Origin: Marichromatium purpuratum 984
Lineage (GTDB): Bacteria; Pseudomonadota; Gammaproteobacteria; Chromatiales; Chromatiaceae
Assembly: GCF_000224005.2 (NCBI RefSeq)
Contig: NZ_CP007031.1
Coordinates: forward strand, 2,571,001-2,635,000
Length of the DNA: 64,000 nucleotides
Direction of reading: 5' to 3'
Numbering within the stretch: the first letter of the stretch is position 1; the number at the start of each line of letters is the position of its first letter. The notes under the pieces are model-generated. The model made no database searches and was not told where the DNA came from. It worked only from the letters and a program-made list of their open reading frames with translations. Positions 51 to 7,270 of the stretch are shown one piece after another. The translations under genes were made by a program, and so were the position numbers.

Positions 51-812
51 TCACCCGAGGGTATAGCCGGCGTCGACCTTGAGGGTCGCACCGGTGATCA
101 GGCGCGCCCGCGCCGAGGCGAGGAACTCCACCGCGTCGGCCACGTCCTCGGGGCGCACCACCTCGCCGCCGAGCACATGACGCCGCGCCACCGTCTCGGC
201 CATCAGCGCGCGCGCCTCGCCCCACATCTCCGAATCGACCACCCCCGGCGCCACGCCGTTGACGCGGATGCCGCGTTCGCCGAGGGCGAGCGCGAGACGC
301 TGGGTGAGCATGTCGAGTCCGGCCTTGCTGACCGAGTAGCTGGTCGAGGTGCAGCTGGCGAAAGGGTGCCCGGCGCAGGCCGAGGAGAGGTTGATGACCA
401 CCGGCGCGGCGCTGTGCTCGAGCAAGGGCGCGGCACATTGGGTCAACGCGAAGGGAGCGACCAGATTGACCTCGAGGGTCGCGCGCCATTGTTCGAGTTC
501 GGCCTCCAGGGTGCCGACGTCGAGGATCACCCCGGCGTTGTTGATCAGTACGTCGAGACGCCCGTCACGCGTCCTGATCTCCTCGACCAGCCGCGAGCGG
601 AAGGCCGCGTCGGTGGCGTCTCCGGTGAGCGCGAGCAAGCGCTCGCCGACGACGGCCTCGGGGTACGCCGCGCGCAGCCGCGCCAGGCGCGCAGGATCCC
701 GCCCAAAGGTGTAGACCCGCGCACCGAGTTCGAGAAAGCGCCCGACCAATGCCGCGCCGATCCCCGAGGTGCCGCCGCTGACACAGACCACCCGTGGCGT
801 CGGTGCACTCAT
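51..812 (-). CDS. Short-chain dehydrogenase/reductase (classical SDR), 253 aa
   Basis: A cytoplasmic NAD(P)H-dependent oxidoreductase of the classical SDR family. The Rossmann motif GGTSGIG lies at residues 13-19, NNAG at 91-94, Asn116 in the EVN motif, Ser143/144, and the catalytic YSVSK with Tyr159 and Lys163. The C-terminus has the usual GATLKVDAG motif. The ATG at 812 overlaps the stop of the upstream SDR gene by four bases, so translation is probably coupled. The same reading frame stays open upstream of this ATG but lacks SDR character there. As third gene after a pterin-synthase-family gene and another SDR, it may reduce a pterin side chain; that substrate is an inference from context only. 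Confidence 0.88.
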   Translation of the reverse strand: MSAPTPRVVCVSGGTSGIGAALVGRFLELGARVYTFGRDPARLARLRAAYPEAVVGERLLALTGDATDAAFRSRLVEEIRTRDGRLDVLINNAGVILDVGTLEAELEQWRATLEVNLVAPFALTQCAAPLLEHSAAPVVINLSSACAGHPFASCTSTSYSVSKAGLDMLTQRLALALGERGIRVNGVAPGVVDSEMWGEARALMAETVARRHVLGGEVVRPEDVADAVEFLASARARLITGATLKVDAGYTLG

Positions 813-1510
813 CGCTCGCGCTGTCCGAGGTTGGCGTGAATCAGCGCGCCGTTGAGCACCGGCGCGCCGGCGGCGAAGGCCACGGTCTCGGCGATCTCCT
901 CGGGCTCGATCAGCCGGTCGAAGGCGCTCAGACCGGTAAGCGCCGCCAGGGTCTCGGCATTGCCGTCGATCACCCCGCGCAACTGCTCGGTATCGGTGAA
1001 GCCGGGGCAGATCATACAGGTATGGACGCCGTGCCCGGCCAGATCCTGACAGGTTGCGCGCATCATCCCGGCGAGCGCGTGCTTGGCGATGACATAGCTC
1101 GCCACCCCCGGCACCGCCTTCTCGGCCAGGGTCGAGCCGATATAGATCACGCTCGAGCCGGCGCCCATCCGTCCCAGCAGCAGGCGGTTGAGGGTCGCGG
1201 CGGCCACCAGGTTGAGTTCGAGCACTGCGCGCAGGTGCTCGGCCTCGAGCGCATCGGCACGATCGGCGTGCATCACCGAGGCGTTGTGCACCAGACATAC
1301 CCGCTCGGCGCCGGCGACCGCCTCCTGCAGCGCCCCGGCACATTGCTCCAGCGCGCCGGGCACGGCCAGATCACAGGCGAGATTGTCGACACCCACGTCC
1401 GGACAAGGACGGCGCGACAGGTTGAGCACGCTCCAGCCATCGACCAGGAAGCGCGTGGCGATGGCGCGTCCGATCCCCGAGCTGGCGCCGGTGACGATCA
1501 ATCGATTCAT
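809..1510 (-). CDS. Short-chain dehydrogenase/reductase, possibly sepiapterin-reductase-like, 233 aa
   Basis: An SDR fold with TGASSGIG at residues 7-14, catalytic Ser126, Tyr139 and Lys143 (YVIAK), and Asn100. The usual NNAG segment reads HNAS (75-78), a departure from classical SDRs. The ATG at 1510 overlaps the upstream PTPS-family stop (ATGA). Its short length and its place directly after a pyruvoyl-tetrahydropterin-synthase-family gene suggest a sepiapterin-reductase-like role, reducing the side chain of a pterin intermediate. Family membership is clear from the motifs, but the substrate is inferred from neighbours. Confidence 0.85.
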   Translation of the reverse strand: MNRLIVTGASSGIGRAIATRFLVDGWSVLNLSRRPCPDVGVDNLACDLAVPGALEQCAGALQEAVAGAERVCLVHNASVMHADRADALEAEHLRAVLELNLVAAATLNRLLLGRMGAGSSVIYIGSTLAEKAVPGVASYVIAKHALAGMMRATCQDLAGHGVHTCMICPGFTDTEQLRGVIDGNAETLAALTGLSAFDRLIEPEEIAETVAFAAGAPVLNGALIHANLGQRER

Positions 1511-2001
1511 TCTGACTCCCAGGTTGAATAGGCCCACTGCCCGAGCCCCGACGAGACCCCCAGCTCGATACCGCGCACGTCGGCGCCGATCAGCTCGGGA
1601 CGATCACGCAGCCGCGCGAGCAGCAGCTCGGCGAGTTCCTCGATGGTCACGTTGCGCAACGGCAACAGCAGCACGTCGCGTTCGAGAAAGGGGATGCGCT
1701 CGCGATCGAAGCACGCGAACACCATGCCGTCGCCGCGCTCGATGCGCAGGTACGGCGACAGCTCCGGCAACAGCATGCGCTCGTCGAGGGCGTCGCACAG
1801 CTCGCGCAGCACGCGCTTGAGCACCACGTAGTCGAAGGTCATGCCATCGGCGCCGATCCCGGCGGTCACGGCGCAGCGGACCCGAAAGTTGTGTCCATGA
1901 AGGTTCTCACGCGCGACGGACGAGAAGATGGTGAAGTGTCCGGCGCTGAAATTCAGATATTCCTTGCTGATCTCGATACGGGTCAGGGGATGCTTTGCCA
2001 C
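1507..2001 (-). CDS. 6-pyruvoyl-tetrahydropterin synthase / QueD family protein, 164 aa
   Basis: A zinc-dependent enzyme family that acts on 7,8-dihydroneopterin triphosphate. The zinc histidines are His22 (SAGHF) and His35/His37 (HGHNF). The Thr-x-Glu motif VTIEEL lies near residue 120. The catalytic cysteine normally found four to six residues before HGH is missing: the segment reads VARENLHGH, with Glu32 three residues before His35, as in the Glu position of PTPS-III and I/III types. The usual LDHxxL motif is LDERML, so its histidine is lost. GTG at 2001 is chosen because the family alignment begins with the lysine-rich segment just after it. It is first gene of a tightly overlapping trio with two SDRs. 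It may be a divergent pterin synthase rather than a queuosine enzyme. Confidence 0.8.
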   Translation of the reverse strand: MAKHPLTRIEISKEYLNFSAGHFTIFSSVARENLHGHNFRVRCAVTAGIGADGMTFDYVVLKRVLRELCDALDERMLLPELSPYLRIERGDGMVFACFDRERIPFLERDVLLLPLRNVTIEELAELLLARLRDRPELIGADVRGIELGVSSGLGQWAYSTWESE

Positions 2002-2116: not shown

Positions 2117-3175
2117 TCAACGATCCGCGCGGCGACGCCACACCATGCCCGACAACAGCAGCAACGGCAACGACAGGGTCAGCACCACCAGCTCGAAAAC
2201 AGGCAGCAGCGATGCCTCGGTGGCGCGTAGCGTCACATGCGCGAGATAGAGTGCGAAGGCGATGATGAACAGGGCGCCGACCCATCGCCCGATCGCGATC
2301 CCACCACGAAACAGCGGCACACAGAGCAGCACGACGGCGATCATGATCGGCAGATCGATCAACAGGGTCTCGCGCGAGATGGCGATGGCCTCCGGCGCGG
2401 CCAGGGCGCCGAGCCCGAGCACCGCAAGGATATTGAACAGATTACTGCCGAGCACATTGCCCACGGCGAGATCGCGATGGCCGCGCAGACAGGCGATCAC
2501 CGAGGTCGCCACCTCCGGCAGCGAGGTGCCGATGGCAACCACCGTCAACCCGATCACCAGTTCGTCGACACCCAGTACCCGGGCGATATCGACCGCCCCC
2601 ATCACCAGCAGGCGGGCACCGATGGCCAGCAGCAGCAACCCCAGGGCAAGCAGCGCGAACTGGCCGAGCAGCGCTCGCGGCGAACGTGACACCGCCGCCG
2701 TATCGGTCCCGACACCCTCGCCACGCCCCTGGCGGATCGACCACACCAGATAGACCAGCAACGCGGCGAACAACAACCCACCATCGAAGCGCCCCACTCC
2801 GCCGTCAAGCGCGAGCAACCAGAGCGCGACCGAGGCGGCCAGCACCAGTGGCAAATCGATCCGCACCGCGCGACGATGCACCACCAGTGGCGCGGTCAGG
2901 GCCGCTGCACCCAGCACCAGCAGGACGTTGGCGATGTTGCTGCCGACCACGTTGCCGACGGCCAGATCCGCCGCGCCCGCCCAGGCCGACTGCAGCGTCA
3001 CCGCCAACTCGGGCGCGCTGGTGGCGAAGGAGACCACGGTCAGCCCCACCACCAGCGGGCTGATCCGCATCGCCTGGGCCAGCGCCGAGGCGGCACGCAC
3101 CAACAGCTCGCCGCCACCGAGCAGGATGATGAACCCGGCCAGGATCAGTAGGGCCGAAAGAATCGACTCGTGCAT
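2117..3175 (-). CDS. Calcium/sodium antiporter family membrane protein (CaCA, YrbG-like), 352 aa
   Basis: An inner-membrane cation exchanger of the CaCA superfamily. It has about ten hydrophobic segments and the two inverted alpha repeats: GLTVVSFATSAPE with GNVVGSN at residues 44-80, and GLTVVAIGTSLPE with GNVLGSN near 208-250. The acidic Glu residues in the SAPE and SLPE motifs are the expected ion ligands. Length fits the family. It likely exchanges Ca2+ for Na+ or H+, but the ion cannot be fixed from sequence. It is not obviously in an operon with the pterin genes, which begin about 115 bp downstream. Confidence 0.9.
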   Translation of the reverse strand: MHESILSALLILAGFIILLGGGELLVRAASALAQAMRISPLVVGLTVVSFATSAPELAVTLQSAWAGAADLAVGNVVGSNIANVLLVLGAAALTAPLVVHRRAVRIDLPLVLAASVALWLLALDGGVGRFDGGLLFAALLVYLVWSIRQGRGEGVGTDTAAVSRSPRALLGQFALLALGLLLLAIGARLLVMGAVDIARVLGVDELVIGLTVVAIGTSLPEVATSVIACLRGHRDLAVGNVLGSNLFNILAVLGLGALAAPEAIAISRETLLIDLPIMIAVVLLCVPLFRGGIAIGRWVGALFIIAFALYLAHVTLRATEASLLPVFELVVLTLSLPLLLLSGMVWRRRADR

Positions 3176-3351
3176 GAGGGCTCCCTCCCCCGAAAGGGGA
3201 CAGATTCAGTTGCGCTGAGACCTGACCCGTCACCCTAACCGATCGACACCATCAAAGGCCACGCACCGACTGCGCGGTGCACCCACCTACACCGGCCAGA
3301 CCGCCATCACGGCTCGCTCGCCCCTCGACGCCGCGGTCGAGCCCGGCTCAC

Positions 3352-4110
3352 CTACCGCCTCCTGGCGAGATAGAAGCCGTAGCCGTAGCAGTCCCCGTAT
3401 TGTGCATAGAGCGCCATCTCCGTCTCCTCGGCGGCCACGATCGCGCGGGCCCGCTCACTCCCGGCATGGCGCGCCAGGAAGGCCGCGAAACGATCTCGCA
3501 GCGGTCGATAGTAATGCGCCTCCCAGCACGATTCGGGCAGCACGAAATAGCCGATCGGGGCATAGCCGTGACGCTCGAGCACGGCGAGCTTGGCCGCGGC
3601 GGTGTCGATTTCGGGGTACTCGGCCTCCCAGTGCGTCTGCACCTCGGGCGGACGCGAGGCCGTCGTCCAGGTGATCTCGGAGACGGCAAGGACACCGCCG
3701 GGCCTCAGGTAACGGCGCCACTGCTCGACCCCGCGCGCAAAGCCCATGTTGTAGATCGCGCCCTCGGACCAGAGGAGGTCGTATTCCTCGTCGGCGAACG
3801 GCAGGTCGTCCATCGAGCGACACAACGCGGTCACCCTGTCCGCCACCCCGGCGCGCGCCAGACGCGCGCCGAGCACCTCGACAAAGCTCGGGAGGACATC
3901 CACGGCAGTGATCTCGGCCGTCGGCAACAGACGCGCGAGCGCCAGGGTCGAGGCGCCGGTACCGCAGCCGATGTCGGCGACCCGCAGGGGCGCGGCACGG
4001 TCGATCCGCGCGAGATCGAGCGCGCGCGCAGTCTCCGCGTCGCTCCCCGGTCCCTGCCTCGCGGCGTCCTTGTGCAAGTCGATCAGAAGTTGCAGATCTT
4101 CATCATCCAT
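3352..4110 (-). CDS. Class I SAM-dependent methyltransferase, 252 aa
   Basis: A Rossmann-fold methyltransferase. Motif I is VADIGCGTGAS at about residues 44-54, followed by an acidic strand end (ITAVDV) and a later EEYDLLWSEGAIYNMGF segment typical of methyltransferase motif IV. The substrate is unknown. The late DLLWSEGAIY motif resembles small-molecule methyltransferases of the Methyltransf_11/25 type rather than RNA enzymes. It stands alone, 105 bp upstream of zur on the same strand, with no shared function visible. Confidence 0.85.
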   Translation of the reverse strand: MDDEDLQLLIDLHKDAARQGPGSDAETARALDLARIDRAAPLRVADIGCGTGASTLALARLLPTAEITAVDVLPSFVEVLGARLARAGVADRVTALCRSMDDLPFADEEYDLLWSEGAIYNMGFARGVEQWRRYLRPGGVLAVSEITWTTASRPPEVQTHWEAEYPEIDTAAAKLAVLERHGYAPIGYFVLPESCWEAHYYRPLRDRFAAFLARHAGSERARAIVAAEETEMALYAQYGDCYGYGFYLARRR

Positions 4111-4215
4111 CGTCGAGGGTCCCGTCGGTCAAGGAAGAAGCGTCGGAGCAACAGTGCTCGACATCGATACGGCACGTCACGGCGGCTAACGCCGGCGCAT
4201 GCGTGCCTCGCGCGC

Positions 4216-4647
4216 TCACCGACACCCCTCGCACACCCCGATCACCTCGACCACCTTGCGGCTCGGTGCGAAGCCGCTCTGCGTGGCGGCATCGAGCAGA
4301 CGCGCGGCGATCGCCTCGTCGTCGATCTCGACGACCCGGCCGCACTCGCTGCAGATGAGGAACTGTGCCGGGTGCGGGCGCTCGGGATGACGACAGTCGA
4401 TGAAGGCGTTGAGGGTCTCGAGGCGGTGGACGAGGCCCTGGGCGAGCAGGAATTCCAGCGCGCGGTAGACGGTCGGTGGCGCCAGGACGCGCTGCCCCTC
4501 GGCCATCTCGGCAAGGATCTCGTAGGCGCCGAGCGGGCGTTCGGCCTCGATCAGAATGCGCAGCACCCGGGCGCGCTGCGGGGTGAGCCGGACACCGCGC
4601 CCGGTGCACAGCCGCATCGCCCGCTCGAGCCGCCTCTCGGCGCTCAT
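4216..4647 (-). CDS. zur: Zinc uptake regulator Zur (Fur family), 143 aa
   Basis: A Fur-family metal-sensing repressor. The N-terminal winged helix has LTPQRARVLRIL and the recognition region APPTVYRALEFL (56-67). The structural zinc site has CSEC at 99-102 and CEGC at 139-142. The PHPAQFLIC segment is typical of Zur rather than Fur, which has an HHDH motif. It is the last gene of znuA-znuC-znuB-zur: its ATG overlaps the znuB stop by four bases, and it ends the operon. Zinc-bound Zur would repress the operon through the box near 7187-7199. Confidence 0.93.
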   Translation of the reverse strand: MSAERRLERAMRLCTGRGVRLTPQRARVLRILIEAERPLGAYEILAEMAEGQRVLAPPTVYRALEFLLAQGLVHRLETLNAFIDCRHPERPHPAQFLICSECGRVVEIDDEAIAARLLDAATQSGFAPSRKVVEVIGVCEGCR

Positions 4648-5495
4648 CCGCCCGCCCTCGCCCGTCGCGCGGCACGATGACGCGCCAGCAGCCGCGCGAC
4701 CAGCGCCGAGAGCACGTAGGCGGCACCGGCGAGCAGGATCATGGTCGGCCCGGCGGGCAGGTCGGGACCGTAGGAGAGCGCCAGCCCGCCGCTGGTGAAG
4801 GCCATGCCGAGCAGGGTCGCGACGACCATCATGGCGCCGAGCGAGTGCAGATAATGCCCGGCGATCGCCGCCGGCAAGGTGAGCAGCGCGATCACCAGGA
4901 TCAACCCGACGACCTGGATCAGCAGCACCACGGTCACCGCTACCAGACACAACAGCAGCAGATAGAAGAAGGCCACCGGCACGCCACGCAGGCGGGCGAA
5001 CTCCTCGTCGAAGATCACGGCGACGAACTGGCGATAACACAGCCCGACGACCACCAGCAGCACCAGATCGAGCGCCCCCATGAACCAGAGCGCGCGCTCG
5101 GGCACCAGCAGGATATTACCGAACAGCAGGCTGATCAGATCGGTGGCGTAGCCCGGGGTCTTGGCGATGAAGAGGATGCCGACGGCCATGCCGATGGCCC
5201 AGAGCGCGCCGATCAGGGTGTCCTCCTGCGCCGCCCAGGCCAGGCGCACGCCGCCGATCAGCAGCGCCGAGACGATCGCCGCGAACAACGCGCCGAGCAG
5301 CGGGTCGAGACCGAAATACAGCGCCGCGCCCATGCCGCCGAGCACCGAGTGGGCGATGCCCCCGGCCATGAAGGCGATACGCTTGACCACCACCAGGGTG
5401 CCGACCACGCCGCAACCGATGCTGGCGAGCAAGCCGGCGAGCAGCGCGCCCTGGAGGAAGTCGTAGTGGATCAGTGCGTCGAGGAATGCGTTCAT
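4644..5495 (-). CDS. znuB: Zinc ABC transporter permease ZnuB, 283 aa
   Basis: The inner-membrane subunit of the high-affinity zinc importer. It has about eight hydrophobic segments in the ABC-3 family pattern, starting with a short amphipathic helix and GALLAGLLASIGCGVVG. The family-typical segment RGVPVAFFYLLLLCLVAVTV lies in the middle. The chosen ATG at 5495 overlaps the znuC stop by four bases. The frame stays open upstream over znuC, but that part is a non-coding shadow. Translation is likely coupled to znuC and zur. Confidence 0.94.
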   Translation of the reverse strand: MNAFLDALIHYDFLQGALLAGLLASIGCGVVGTLVVVKRIAFMAGGIAHSVLGGMGAALYFGLDPLLGALFAAIVSALLIGGVRLAWAAQEDTLIGALWAIGMAVGILFIAKTPGYATDLISLLFGNILLVPERALWFMGALDLVLLVVVGLCYRQFVAVIFDEEFARLRGVPVAFFYLLLLCLVAVTVVLLIQVVGLILVIALLTLPAAIAGHYLHSLGAMMVVATLLGMAFTSGGLALSYGPDLPAGPTMILLAGAAYVLSALVARLLARHRAARRARAGG

Positions 5496-6259
5496 GTGTG
5501 ATGTCGATGTGCGCCCGGACAGGGTCCCGGCAAGTCGTGAGCGACGGCGCGCAGCCGCGTACCGTAGAGGTGCTGCACCAGCTCGCCGTCGAGCGCGTCG
5601 GTGGGGTGGCAGGTGAGCGTGCGGTTGAGACAGGCGACCCGGTGGACATAGGCCGAGATGAAGGCGATGTCGTGCGAGACGACGAGGATGGTCGGCTGCG
5701 GGTCGAGCCCGGCGAGCAGGTCGAAGATGTCGCCCTCGGCGCGTTGGTCGACATTGGCGGTGGGCTCGTCGAGGATCAGCAGGCGCGGCTCGGTGACCAG
5801 CGCGCGGGCGAGCAGCACGCGTTGCAGCTGGCCGCCGGAGAGCGCGCCGACGCGCCGCTCGGCCAGCCCCTCGGCGCCGACTGCGGCGAGCGCGCGGCGC
5901 GCCGCGGCGCGATCGGCGCGACGGGTCCAGCCCCACCAGGACCCCTGCCCCAACCGGCCCATGGCGACCACCTGCTCGACGGCGATCGGGAAATCGCGCG
6001 GGAAGCCGGGGAACTGGGGGACATAGCCGATGTGGCGCGCGGCACGCTGTGGCGACTCACCGAAGACATGGATCTGGCCGCGCTGCGGGCTGAGCAGACC
6101 GAGGATCAGCCGGAGCAGGGTGCTCTTGCCTCCGGCATTGGGTCCGACCAGCCCGATGAACTCGCCGGCAAGCACGGTGAGATCGACCCGCTCGAGGATC
6201 AGCGCGCCATCGTAGGCGAAGCTGAGATCGCGCACCGCGATCGCCGGAGTCGCACTCAT
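5492..6259 (-). CDS. znuC: Zinc ABC transporter ATP-binding protein ZnuC, 255 aa
   Basis: The cytoplasmic ATPase that powers zinc uptake. Walker A GPNAGGKST is at 39-47, the ABC signature LSGGQ at 140-144, Walker B LLILDEP at 160-166, and the H-loop histidine is in VVSHD near 195. The C-terminus is histidine-rich (GAHRHHT), as often seen in ZnuC. Its ATG overlaps the znuA stop by four bases. Length and order match ZnuC in other gammaproteobacteria. Confidence 0.95.
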   Translation of the reverse strand: MSATPAIAVRDLSFAYDGALILERVDLTVLAGEFIGLVGPNAGGKSTLLRLILGLLSPQRGQIHVFGESPQRAARHIGYVPQFPGFPRDFPIAVEQVVAMGRLGQGSWWGWTRRADRAAARRALAAVGAEGLAERRVGALSGGQLQRVLLARALVTEPRLLILDEPTANVDQRAEGDIFDLLAGLDPQPTILVVSHDIAFISAYVHRVACLNRTLTCHPTDALDGELVQHLYGTRLRAVAHDLPGPCPGAHRHHT

Positions 6260-7146
6260 CGATCCTCCCCGGCGACGAGCAGGGTGGCGAGACGACGCAG
6301 GGTGGCAAAGTACTCGGGTGAGAGCGGATCGACCACCTCGACCCGACCACCGATGGCCTCGGCGACGCGCTCGGCGGCGCGCGGATCGAGCTGCGGTTGC
6401 ACCAGGATCAAACGGACGTTCTCATGGCGTGCCTGCTCGATGAGCGCCGCCAGCGCCCGCGCTCCGGGCTCCTTGCCAGCGCGTTCGATGGCAACCTGCT
6501 CGAGTCCATAGGTCGCGGCGAAATAGCCCCAAGCGGGGTGATAGACCATGAAGCGACGGTGCGTGAGCCCATCGAGAGACGCGTGGAGTTCGGTATCGAG
6601 GGCATCGAGTTCGGCAACGAAGCGGTCGTGATTGGCGGCGAATTGCTCGGCGTGTGCCGGGTCGAGCGCGCCGAGGGCATCGCGCAGGTGCCCGGCCATC
6701 ACCCGCACCAGGGGCGGACTGGTCCAGATATGGCTGTCGATCTCGCCGTCATGGTGATCGTGTCCATGGTCATGATCGTGGTGCACGTCCTGATCGGTCG
6801 CGAGCTGGCGCAACGCGATGTCCTGGCGGGCGTCGAGGATCGGCAGCTCGGGGTTGGCCGCGCGTAACCGTGCCAACCAGCCTTCCTCGAAGGGCGCGCC
6901 GATGCGCACGAAAAGATCGGCCTCGGCCAGCGCGGCGATCTGACGCGGGCGCGGCTCGAACAGGTGCGGGCTCTCGCCCGGTGCGACCAGGGCATGCACC
7001 TCGACGCGATCGCCGCCGATGGCCTCGACGAAAGTCTGCTGCGGGGCGAGACTGACGAAGACCTCGAGCGGTTCGGGCTCGGCGGCCACCACCGGCAGCG
7101 ATGCCGCCAGCAGCACCGGACACAGCAGGCGCGTGATCAGGGACAT
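6256..7146 (-). CDS. znuA: Periplasmic zinc-binding protein ZnuA, 296 aa
   Basis: The substrate-binding protein of the zinc importer. A Sec signal peptide occupies about residues 1-22. Zinc ligands expected in the family are visible: His61 (SPHLFEP), His139 (SHIW) and His203 (YHPAWGY). A charged histidine/aspartate loop sits at about 121-132, the hallmark of ZnuA over manganese-binding homologues. ATG at 7146 is chosen because it gives a normal signal peptide; the frame is open 66 bases further upstream. It is first gene of the operon, preceded by a Zur-box-like site. Confidence 0.93.
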   Translation of the reverse strand: MSLITRLLCPVLLAASLPVVAAEPEPLEVFVSLAPQQTFVEAIGGDRVEVHALVAPGESPHLFEPRPRQIAALAEADLFVRIGAPFEEGWLARLRAANPELPILDARQDIALRQLATDQDVHHDHDHGHDHHDGEIDSHIWTSPPLVRVMAGHLRDALGALDPAHAEQFAANHDRFVAELDALDTELHASLDGLTHRRFMVYHPAWGYFAATYGLEQVAIERAGKEPGARALAALIEQARHENVRLILVQPQLDPRAAERVAEAIGGRVEVVDPLSPEYFATLRRLATLLVAGEDR

Positions 7147-7186
7147 GGGGATGGACCTCGCGGACATGGATTCGGAGACACGAAAA

Positions 7187-7199
7187 GATACAATATAAC
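7187..7199 (-). promoter_or_regulatory. Putative Zur box upstream of znuA
   Basis: On the minus strand this segment reads GTTATATTGTATC. It matches 10 of 12 fixed positions of the gammaproteobacterial Zur core GTTATANTATAAC as I remember it. It lies 41 bases upstream of the znuA start in an AT-rich island, and could also lie over the promoter of the divergent gene at 7271. Binding is inferred, not shown. Confidence 0.65.
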
Positions 7200-7270
7200 G
7201 TTTTTCGCCCACCGCACCAGCGACCGGGCCATCGCTCGTCTCACCGTCATCCAGGGGGATGCTGATCCGT

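Follow-up and report, generated by a model that had tools for sequence, protein, structure and literature searches.

Gene organization

Three overlapping genes lie on the minus strand at positions 51-2001 of a 64,000-nucleotide stretch of the Marichromatium purpuratum 984 genome (NZ_CP007031.1, positions 2,571,001 to 2,635,000; this whole stretch is called the window). Their products are an enzyme of the PTPS fold and two short-chain dehydrogenases/reductases (SDRs). The PTPS (P0001, 1507..2001) is a PTPS-III-like protein of 164 aa with a GTG start, SDR1 (P0002, 809..1510) is its partner reductase of 233 aa, and SDR2 (P0003, 51..812) is a second reductase of 253 aa, found in Chromatiaceae. The PTPS/SDR1 and SDR1/SDR2 junctions are each overlaps of 4 bases. 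The window PTPS scores 52.4 bits against the Pfam PTPS model PF01242 (cut-off 22.4), and P0002 and P0003 match the short-chain dehydrogenase families PF13561/PF00106; coordinates, overlaps and Pfam matches all agree with an earlier note, made from the sequence alone, that had described three overlapping minus-strand genes for a PTPS-family protein and two SDRs. The genome is a single contig of 3.78 Mb (G000 in the genome set), and the window PTPS shares 99% identity with its counterparts in Marichromatium gracile and M. bheemlicum.

Active site and fold of the PTPS

The translation of the window PTPS contains the motif RENLHGH (1891..1911, minus strand, as are all features below), that is R31-E32-N-L-H35-G-H37, with a catalytic-type glutamate (Glu32) and the zinc ligands His35 and His37; the third zinc ligand is His22 (1936..1938), and the three histidines are invariant in the alignment (A3). 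The earlier note had read the same three zinc histidines, the same lack of a cysteine before HGH and the same glutamate three residues before the first histidine. The cysteine-less site is not novel: it is an already described signature, ExxHGH, of PTPS-III, the signatures of QueD and PTPS-II being CxxxHGH and CxxxxxHGH, respectively (PMC5041015). In the PTPS of Plasmodium a glutamate takes the role of the cysteine, and the products are 6-hydroxymethyl-dihydropterin and 6-pyruvoyl-tetrahydropterin (PMC2229834). The PDB titles of the Plasmodium vivax mutant entries 3m0n and 3lze name Glu37 as the catalytic residue.

Two further residues of the family are lost in this PTPS. At the place of the LDH Asp-His stands Asp73-Glu74 (1780..1785, by alignment of 106 subfamily members), and the site reads L-D-E74-R; the loss of the LDHxxL histidine, already noticed in the window, extends to the whole subfamily, with a histidine at the aligned place in 0/106 members (Glu in 91, Gln in 7) and one position before or after it in 5/106. 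The family's C-terminal glutamate (SES in Plasmodium, ET in QueD), on which the earlier note was silent, is gone as well: by alignment its place reads VSSG, with Ser151 (1549..1551) in its stead, and in none of the 106 members is there an acidic residue (Glu/Asp) at positions 149-152, the place of SES in Plasmodium. A non-conserved Glu is present at position 153 in 19 members, and the subfamily has a new, conserved SSGxGQ-type C-terminal pattern. Among 31 QueD-type rows of the alignment (27 distinct, with four identical pairs), all have the ET-type glutamate, which aligns two columns off from that of Plasmodium, and 28 keep the LDH histidine. Plasmodium 1y13 has both the LDH histidine and the SES glutamate, and R31, E32, D109 and Q155 of the window PTPS are common to the Plasmodium enzyme. 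The 106 members were picked by RE..HGH, so that their agreement in ExxHGH and E32 is by construction; four chance motif matches were removed from the set, and L156, L068, L076, L087 and L090 gave no usable sequence. Because the motif and active-site features are conserved in relatives, they are not chance features of one sequence. From rat PTPS and QueD work we take the C-terminal glutamate to be the pterin anchor and the LDH histidine to be catalytic; the loss of both throughout the subfamily appears to be new.

The closest solved relatives by sequence are the Plasmodium PTPS entries 1y13 and 2a0s. The predicted structure of the window PTPS (mean predicted local distance difference test score, pLDDT, 95.7) matches Plasmodium PTPS with Z 21.8-22.1 and a root-mean-square deviation of 1.5-1.7 over 159 residues, compared with Z 12.6 for Escherichia coli QueD (4ntk) and Z of at most 13.4 for the other structures among the matches listed. 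In a quick tree the group holding the window PTPS, Plasmodium and the CE and KE types is split from the QueD-type rows with an SH-like approximate likelihood ratio test (SH-aLRT) value of 97. This tree comprised 91 of 143 rows, Plasmodium among them, after the sets from Chromatiaceae and Pseudomonadales had been reduced to one third. The branches of Plasmodium and of the CE group are long and their joining may be false, and the window PTPS is in no starred set below half of the rows. The window PTPS shares with Plasmodium PTPS/PTPS-III the ExxHGH motif with Glu for Cys, the three zinc histidines, a 160-residue architecture and the closest fold, whereas the bacterial subfamily is without the LDH histidine and SES glutamate, usually has FolB in the same genome, and has a dependent SDR1.

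Linkage of SDR1 and SDR2 to the PTPS

SDR1 lies downstream of the PTPS, on the same strand and within about 0.3 kb, in 79/81 loci, a count that describes the nearest relatives (the own genome and the best 80 of at least 532 genome-contig relatives). The two exceptions are a contig that ends and Allochromatium warmingii. In the genome taken as A. warmingii (G029) the PTPS is on one contig and SDR1-SDR2 on another (L261 3568-5045; L239), and the PTPS and SDRs are retained even though they are split. The SDR1-SDR2 pair of this genome stands behind a protein of 889 aa, which to the eye resembles a PAS-type sensor.

In a sample of 369 genomes from the class, SDR1 was found in 13/27 carriers of the PTPS subfamily and in 1/342 other genomes (Fisher 9e-16; Fisher values in this sample ignore kinship). 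The PTPS subfamily was called above 180 bits (next best 123) and SDR1 where the best match in a genome exceeded 280 bits (next genome 116), with at most 10 and 7 candidates, respectively, scored per genome. The occurrence of SDR1 depends on that of the PTPS, and this dependence also appears to be new. In 10/27 of these carriers SDR1 adjoins the PTPS or is separated from it by one gene (loci with a 1.5 kb flank). The sole class genome with SDR1 and no PTPS of the subfamily (G050; L262 5294-6016) has it in what appears by eye to be a fatty-acid/acyl-CoA neighbourhood.

An SDR2 orthologue is present in 26/31 Chromatiaceae loci, with none nearby at the loci of Chromatium okenii and C. weissei, and none was seen near the PTPS outside Chromatiaceae among the 81 nearest loci. 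Co-occurrence of the trio in Chromatiaceae, which the earlier note had named as a check, is borne out by these 26 loci, in which all three genes stand together. A constant link of the PTPS to both SDRs, which the note would have counted as support, does not hold outside the family, where no SDR2 was seen near the PTPS, and in the class sample, where SDR1 is close to the PTPS in only those ten carriers. SDR1 itself has the features of a classical SDR, with Ser126, Tyr139, Lys143 and G8/G12/G14 invariant in 19 sequences.

QueD and FolB as separate enzymes

The window PTPS shares fold and zinc site with QueD/PTPS-I (4ntk, TIGR03367), yet it scores 47.9 bits against TIGR03367, below the cut-off of 89.25, and has neither CxxxHGH, with Arg at the place of the Cys, nor the CxxxxxHGH of PTPS-II. 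The genome has its own QueD adjoining QueC (genome positions 2894055-2896072), and this locus, with the separation in the tree, supports the earlier view that the trio is distinct from queuosine synthesis. The motif, the model cut-off, the tree and the existence of loci of their own for QueD-QueC and CobW-PTPS led us to set aside roles as QueD, PTPS-II or a zinc-starvation QueD2.

The own QueD (G000:C1:2894055-2895080; L007, 8056-9081, minus strand) is a single open frame with three tandem PTPS domains, two with CxxxHGH and a third (DARRRLHGH) without Cys; several PTPS-domain matches within one frame recur in many genomes of the family. A CobW (COG0523) gene stands directly before a CxxxxHGH PTPS at G000:C1:1956347-1957976 (L008, 6348-8160), a pair that looks like the pairing of zinc-starvation QueD paralogues described for Zur regulons (PMC2770081).

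FolB of the own genome is at G000:C1:1343956-1344285, so the window PTPS is not needed there as a FolB bypass. FolB is also present in 8/8 family genomes with this PTPS and in 22/27 class-sample carriers. The five carriers without a FolB match, of which one is 58% complete, all lack SDR1; in those lineages the PTPS could have a bypass role, and a PTPS standing in for FolB would imply a pterin substrate.

Pterin genes near related PTPS genes

Gene context in relatives points in part to pterins. A pteridine reductase (model NF006598, above its cut-off) is divergent near the PTPS in 4/5 subfamily class loci whose upstream SDR was tested (G037, G263, G303 and G321). A methyltransferase-length gene intervenes in all four; the comparable gene of G049 belongs to PF02636. 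The distance from the PTPS to FolB is about 5 kb in G037 and about 3 kb in G303. The more distant G252/G136 type has the overlapping order FolB-SDR-PTPS, with folK about 5 kb further on (tested in G136 only). L228 and L229 have a run of overlapping genes for FolB, an SDR and a KENLHGH PTPS, a PTPS-SDR pairing outside the strict subfamily.

A gene of the Vut_1 (COG1738) family, an assignment that rests on one tested representative, follows SDR1 in 39/49 more distant contig loci, on the same strand in 18, and in two class genomes it separates the PTPS from SDR1. In the literature searched, the sole tested role of COG1738 is preQ0/preQ1 transport (PMC5372724).

Proposed pathway and alternatives

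The reading that we favour, tentatively and with slightly less than even confidence, is that the trio is an operon for the side-chain processing of a pterin, in which a PTPS-III-like variant and its reductase(s) would make a side-chain-reduced pterin. It builds on the observed gene structure, motif, loss of His and Glu, SDR1 dependence and separate FolB and QueD, and on the predicted fold. The PTPS would be a zinc enzyme of Plasmodium PTPS-III architecture with Glu32 as general base instead of Cys, and its substrate would most likely be 7,8-dihydroneopterin triphosphate from GTP cyclohydrolase. SDR1 would be a dedicated NADPH-type reductase acting on the carbonyl of the PTPS product, for example a pyruvoyl-type side chain; such a product lies within the range of the ExxHGH type of active site, since the Plasmodium enzyme yields 6-pyruvoyl-tetrahydropterin (PMC2229834). 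In Chromatiaceae SDR2 may carry out a second reduction, and the pathway may end in a reduced pterin that is biopterin-like or unusual in some other way. Aromatic amino acid hydroxylases, among others, are possible users in other gammaproteobacteria. We infer the cofactor preference, substrate, order of steps, product and use; for the pterin substrate itself, the loss of the C-terminal glutamate leaves it unproven.

The pathway would resemble two known systems. With the PTPS-II and sepiapterin reductase pair of biopterin synthesis, for example in Chlorobium (PMC5041015, PMC5683033), it would share the principle that an SDR acts after a PTPS to reduce the side chain, whereas the window has no CxxxxxHGH, and SDR1 and SDR2 were not identified as sepiapterin reductases among the matches listed. 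With the FolX/FolM and PruA monapterin route (PMC13259868) it would share an SDR-type reductase, curated pteridine reductases being found near some PTPS relatives, but the window SDRs differ from FolM/PruA in having Gly for Arg in TGX3RXG and in failing NF006598. Pterin-dependent aromatic amino acid hydroxylases are present in 16/27 PTPS carriers of the class sample and 39/342 other genomes.

Several observations weigh against this pathway. With the LDH histidine and C-terminal glutamate gone in 106/106 members, the canonical PTPS reaction is not assured, and the loss of these two canonical residues may mean another reaction or even another substrate. Of the 27 class-sample carriers 14 are without SDR1, from which it follows that the PTPS also has a role without it. 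The Arg of TGX3RXG, a mark of the pteridine reductases FolM, PruA and PTR1 (PMC13259868), is replaced by Gly in both SDRs (TGASSGIG in SDR1, SGGTSGIG in SDR2), and 0/8 trio-type genomes pass the curated pteridine reductase model NF006598 (cut-off 288 bits), which in G000 scores 122.1 bits at the place of SDR2 and 27.5 bits at that of SDR1. No named sepiapterin reductase is among the 60 PDB rows listed for each SDR. In relatives, 5/9 neighbouring SDRs tested fail NF006598 (L141, L155, L158, L226 and L228; these comprise a class locus of the subfamily, in G162, a KE-type locus, in G252, and three contig loci). As for the hydroxylases, 4 of the 16 carriers have them as weak, split matches, and their frequency is similar without SDR1 (8/14) and with it (8/13), which ties them to the PTPS rather than to SDR1; PF00351 has no match in any of 34 family genomes, G000 included. 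Phenylalanine hydroxylase was accordingly rejected as the user of the product in the own genome.

Other readings of the locus were weighed against the same evidence. That SDR1 follows the PTPS as a bystander in an ordinary PTPS-III folate bypass, which makes 6-hydroxymethyl-7,8-dihydropterin for folate, would suit the ExxHGH motif, the Plasmodium-like fold and the five class-sample carriers without a FolB match; it does not explain the dependence of SDR1 on the PTPS, it is hard to square with FolB in the own genome, all eight family PTPS genomes and most class-sample carriers, and the LDH histidine and C-terminal glutamate kept in Plasmodium are lost here, so we consider it unlikely. We find it rather unlikely, though a reading to be reckoned with, that the fold and zinc are kept and the pterin site is lost, the enzyme acting on some other small substrate, perhaps an aldehyde or a phosphorylated compound, for SDR1 to reduce afterwards. 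The two losses in 106/106 members and the new SSGxGQ-type pattern speak for such a non-pterin enzyme; R31, E32, D109 and Q155 in common with Plasmodium PTPS, the close superposition over 159 residues, pterin genes (pteridine reductase, FolB) among the neighbours in some relatives and the enrichment of carriers in pterin-dependent hydroxylases speak against it.

The reactions of PTPS-III and QueD set free a two-carbon aldehyde, and SDR1 might dispose of it (glycolaldehyde phosphate or acetaldehyde) rather than act on a pterin. Its tie to the PTPS would fit this role, but 14/27 carriers do without SDR1 and it accounts poorly for the additional SDR of another kind in Chromatiaceae, and we regard it as very unlikely. 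A second QueD for queuosine, for instance a zinc-starvation paralogue, recalls the znuCB genes upstream in 11/31 Chromatiaceae loci and the QueD paralogues described in Zur regulons (PMC2770081); with no CxxxHGH, a score far under the TIGR03367 cut-off, a place outside the QueD group, both a QueD by QueC and a PTPS by CobW already in the genome, and the sole Zur-like site of the window near the znuA start and not before the PTPS, it is highly improbable. Returning to the pterin operon, a wider statement that leaves the product undecided is possible and held with less confidence: that a widespread gammaproteobacterial branch with the PTPS-III motif and the lost His and Glu makes a new product, an unusual pterin or a non-pterin, with a dedicated reductase and, in purple sulfur bacteria, a second one.

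The members of COG0720 are assigned by a single short motif close to HGH, and by this motif the window PTPS would count as a folate enzyme. The data suggest that a branch with ExxHGH has a different active site, usually occurs alongside FolB and has a dependent reductase. Should the wider statement hold, the ExxHGH motif would wrongly class this entire branch, which may number hundreds of proteins, with the folate enzymes. The pterin operon, if real, would be a pterin-type pathway, so far unassigned, that purple sulfur bacteria share with other gammaproteobacteria, separate from the folate and tRNA-modification routes; it would give SDR1 a place in metabolism and would be a candidate source of reduced pterin for the aromatic amino acid hydroxylases that many of the genomes encode. 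In the literature searched, no paper joins Chromatiaceae and pterin and none was recognised on the PTPS-SDR pair; key papers on the subfamilies lay outside this search, and the absence is weak.

Neighbouring genes and minor observations

Genes for zinc uptake, which we take from their sequence to be znuA, znuC, znuB and a Fur-family zur, occupy 4216..7212 of the window on the minus strand and are given as context only. The genes at 2117-7212, upstream of the trio, are in line as znuA-znuC-znuB-zur-methyltransferase-CaxA. Pfam supports one znuC and one znuB homologue in relatives, where znuC-znuB lies upstream of the PTPS on the same strand in 11/31 Chromatiaceae loci, with zur in 10. The window and 31 related loci were scanned with a Zur-box consensus (GTTATANTATAAC, at most 2 mismatches). 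The single site in the window (7187-7199, 2 mismatches) falls inside the longest open frame of znuA, ahead of the likely ATG of this gene, and no Zur-like site was seen before the PTPS in the window and related-loci scan. Zur-like sites occur in 7/31 related loci, at or before the first zinc-uptake gene in six (L092, L093, L106, L107, L109 and L114) and near the contig end, behind SDR2, in the seventh (L116).

Viral contigs searched with P0001 gave 8 pattern matches, none of them confirmed as a relative. Two contigs are probably mislabelled or belong to mixed metagenome-assembled genomes: L122, labelled Blastocatellia, with a Chromatiaceae-like znuCB-PTPS end, and L164, labelled Klebsiella pneumoniae, with a Pseudomonadales-like PTPS-SDR1. 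Within the family the PTPS is present in 8/15 genomes with photosynthetic reaction-centre genes and 0/19 without them; a link to photosynthesis as such was rejected, because elsewhere in the class non-phototrophs carry the subfamily too.

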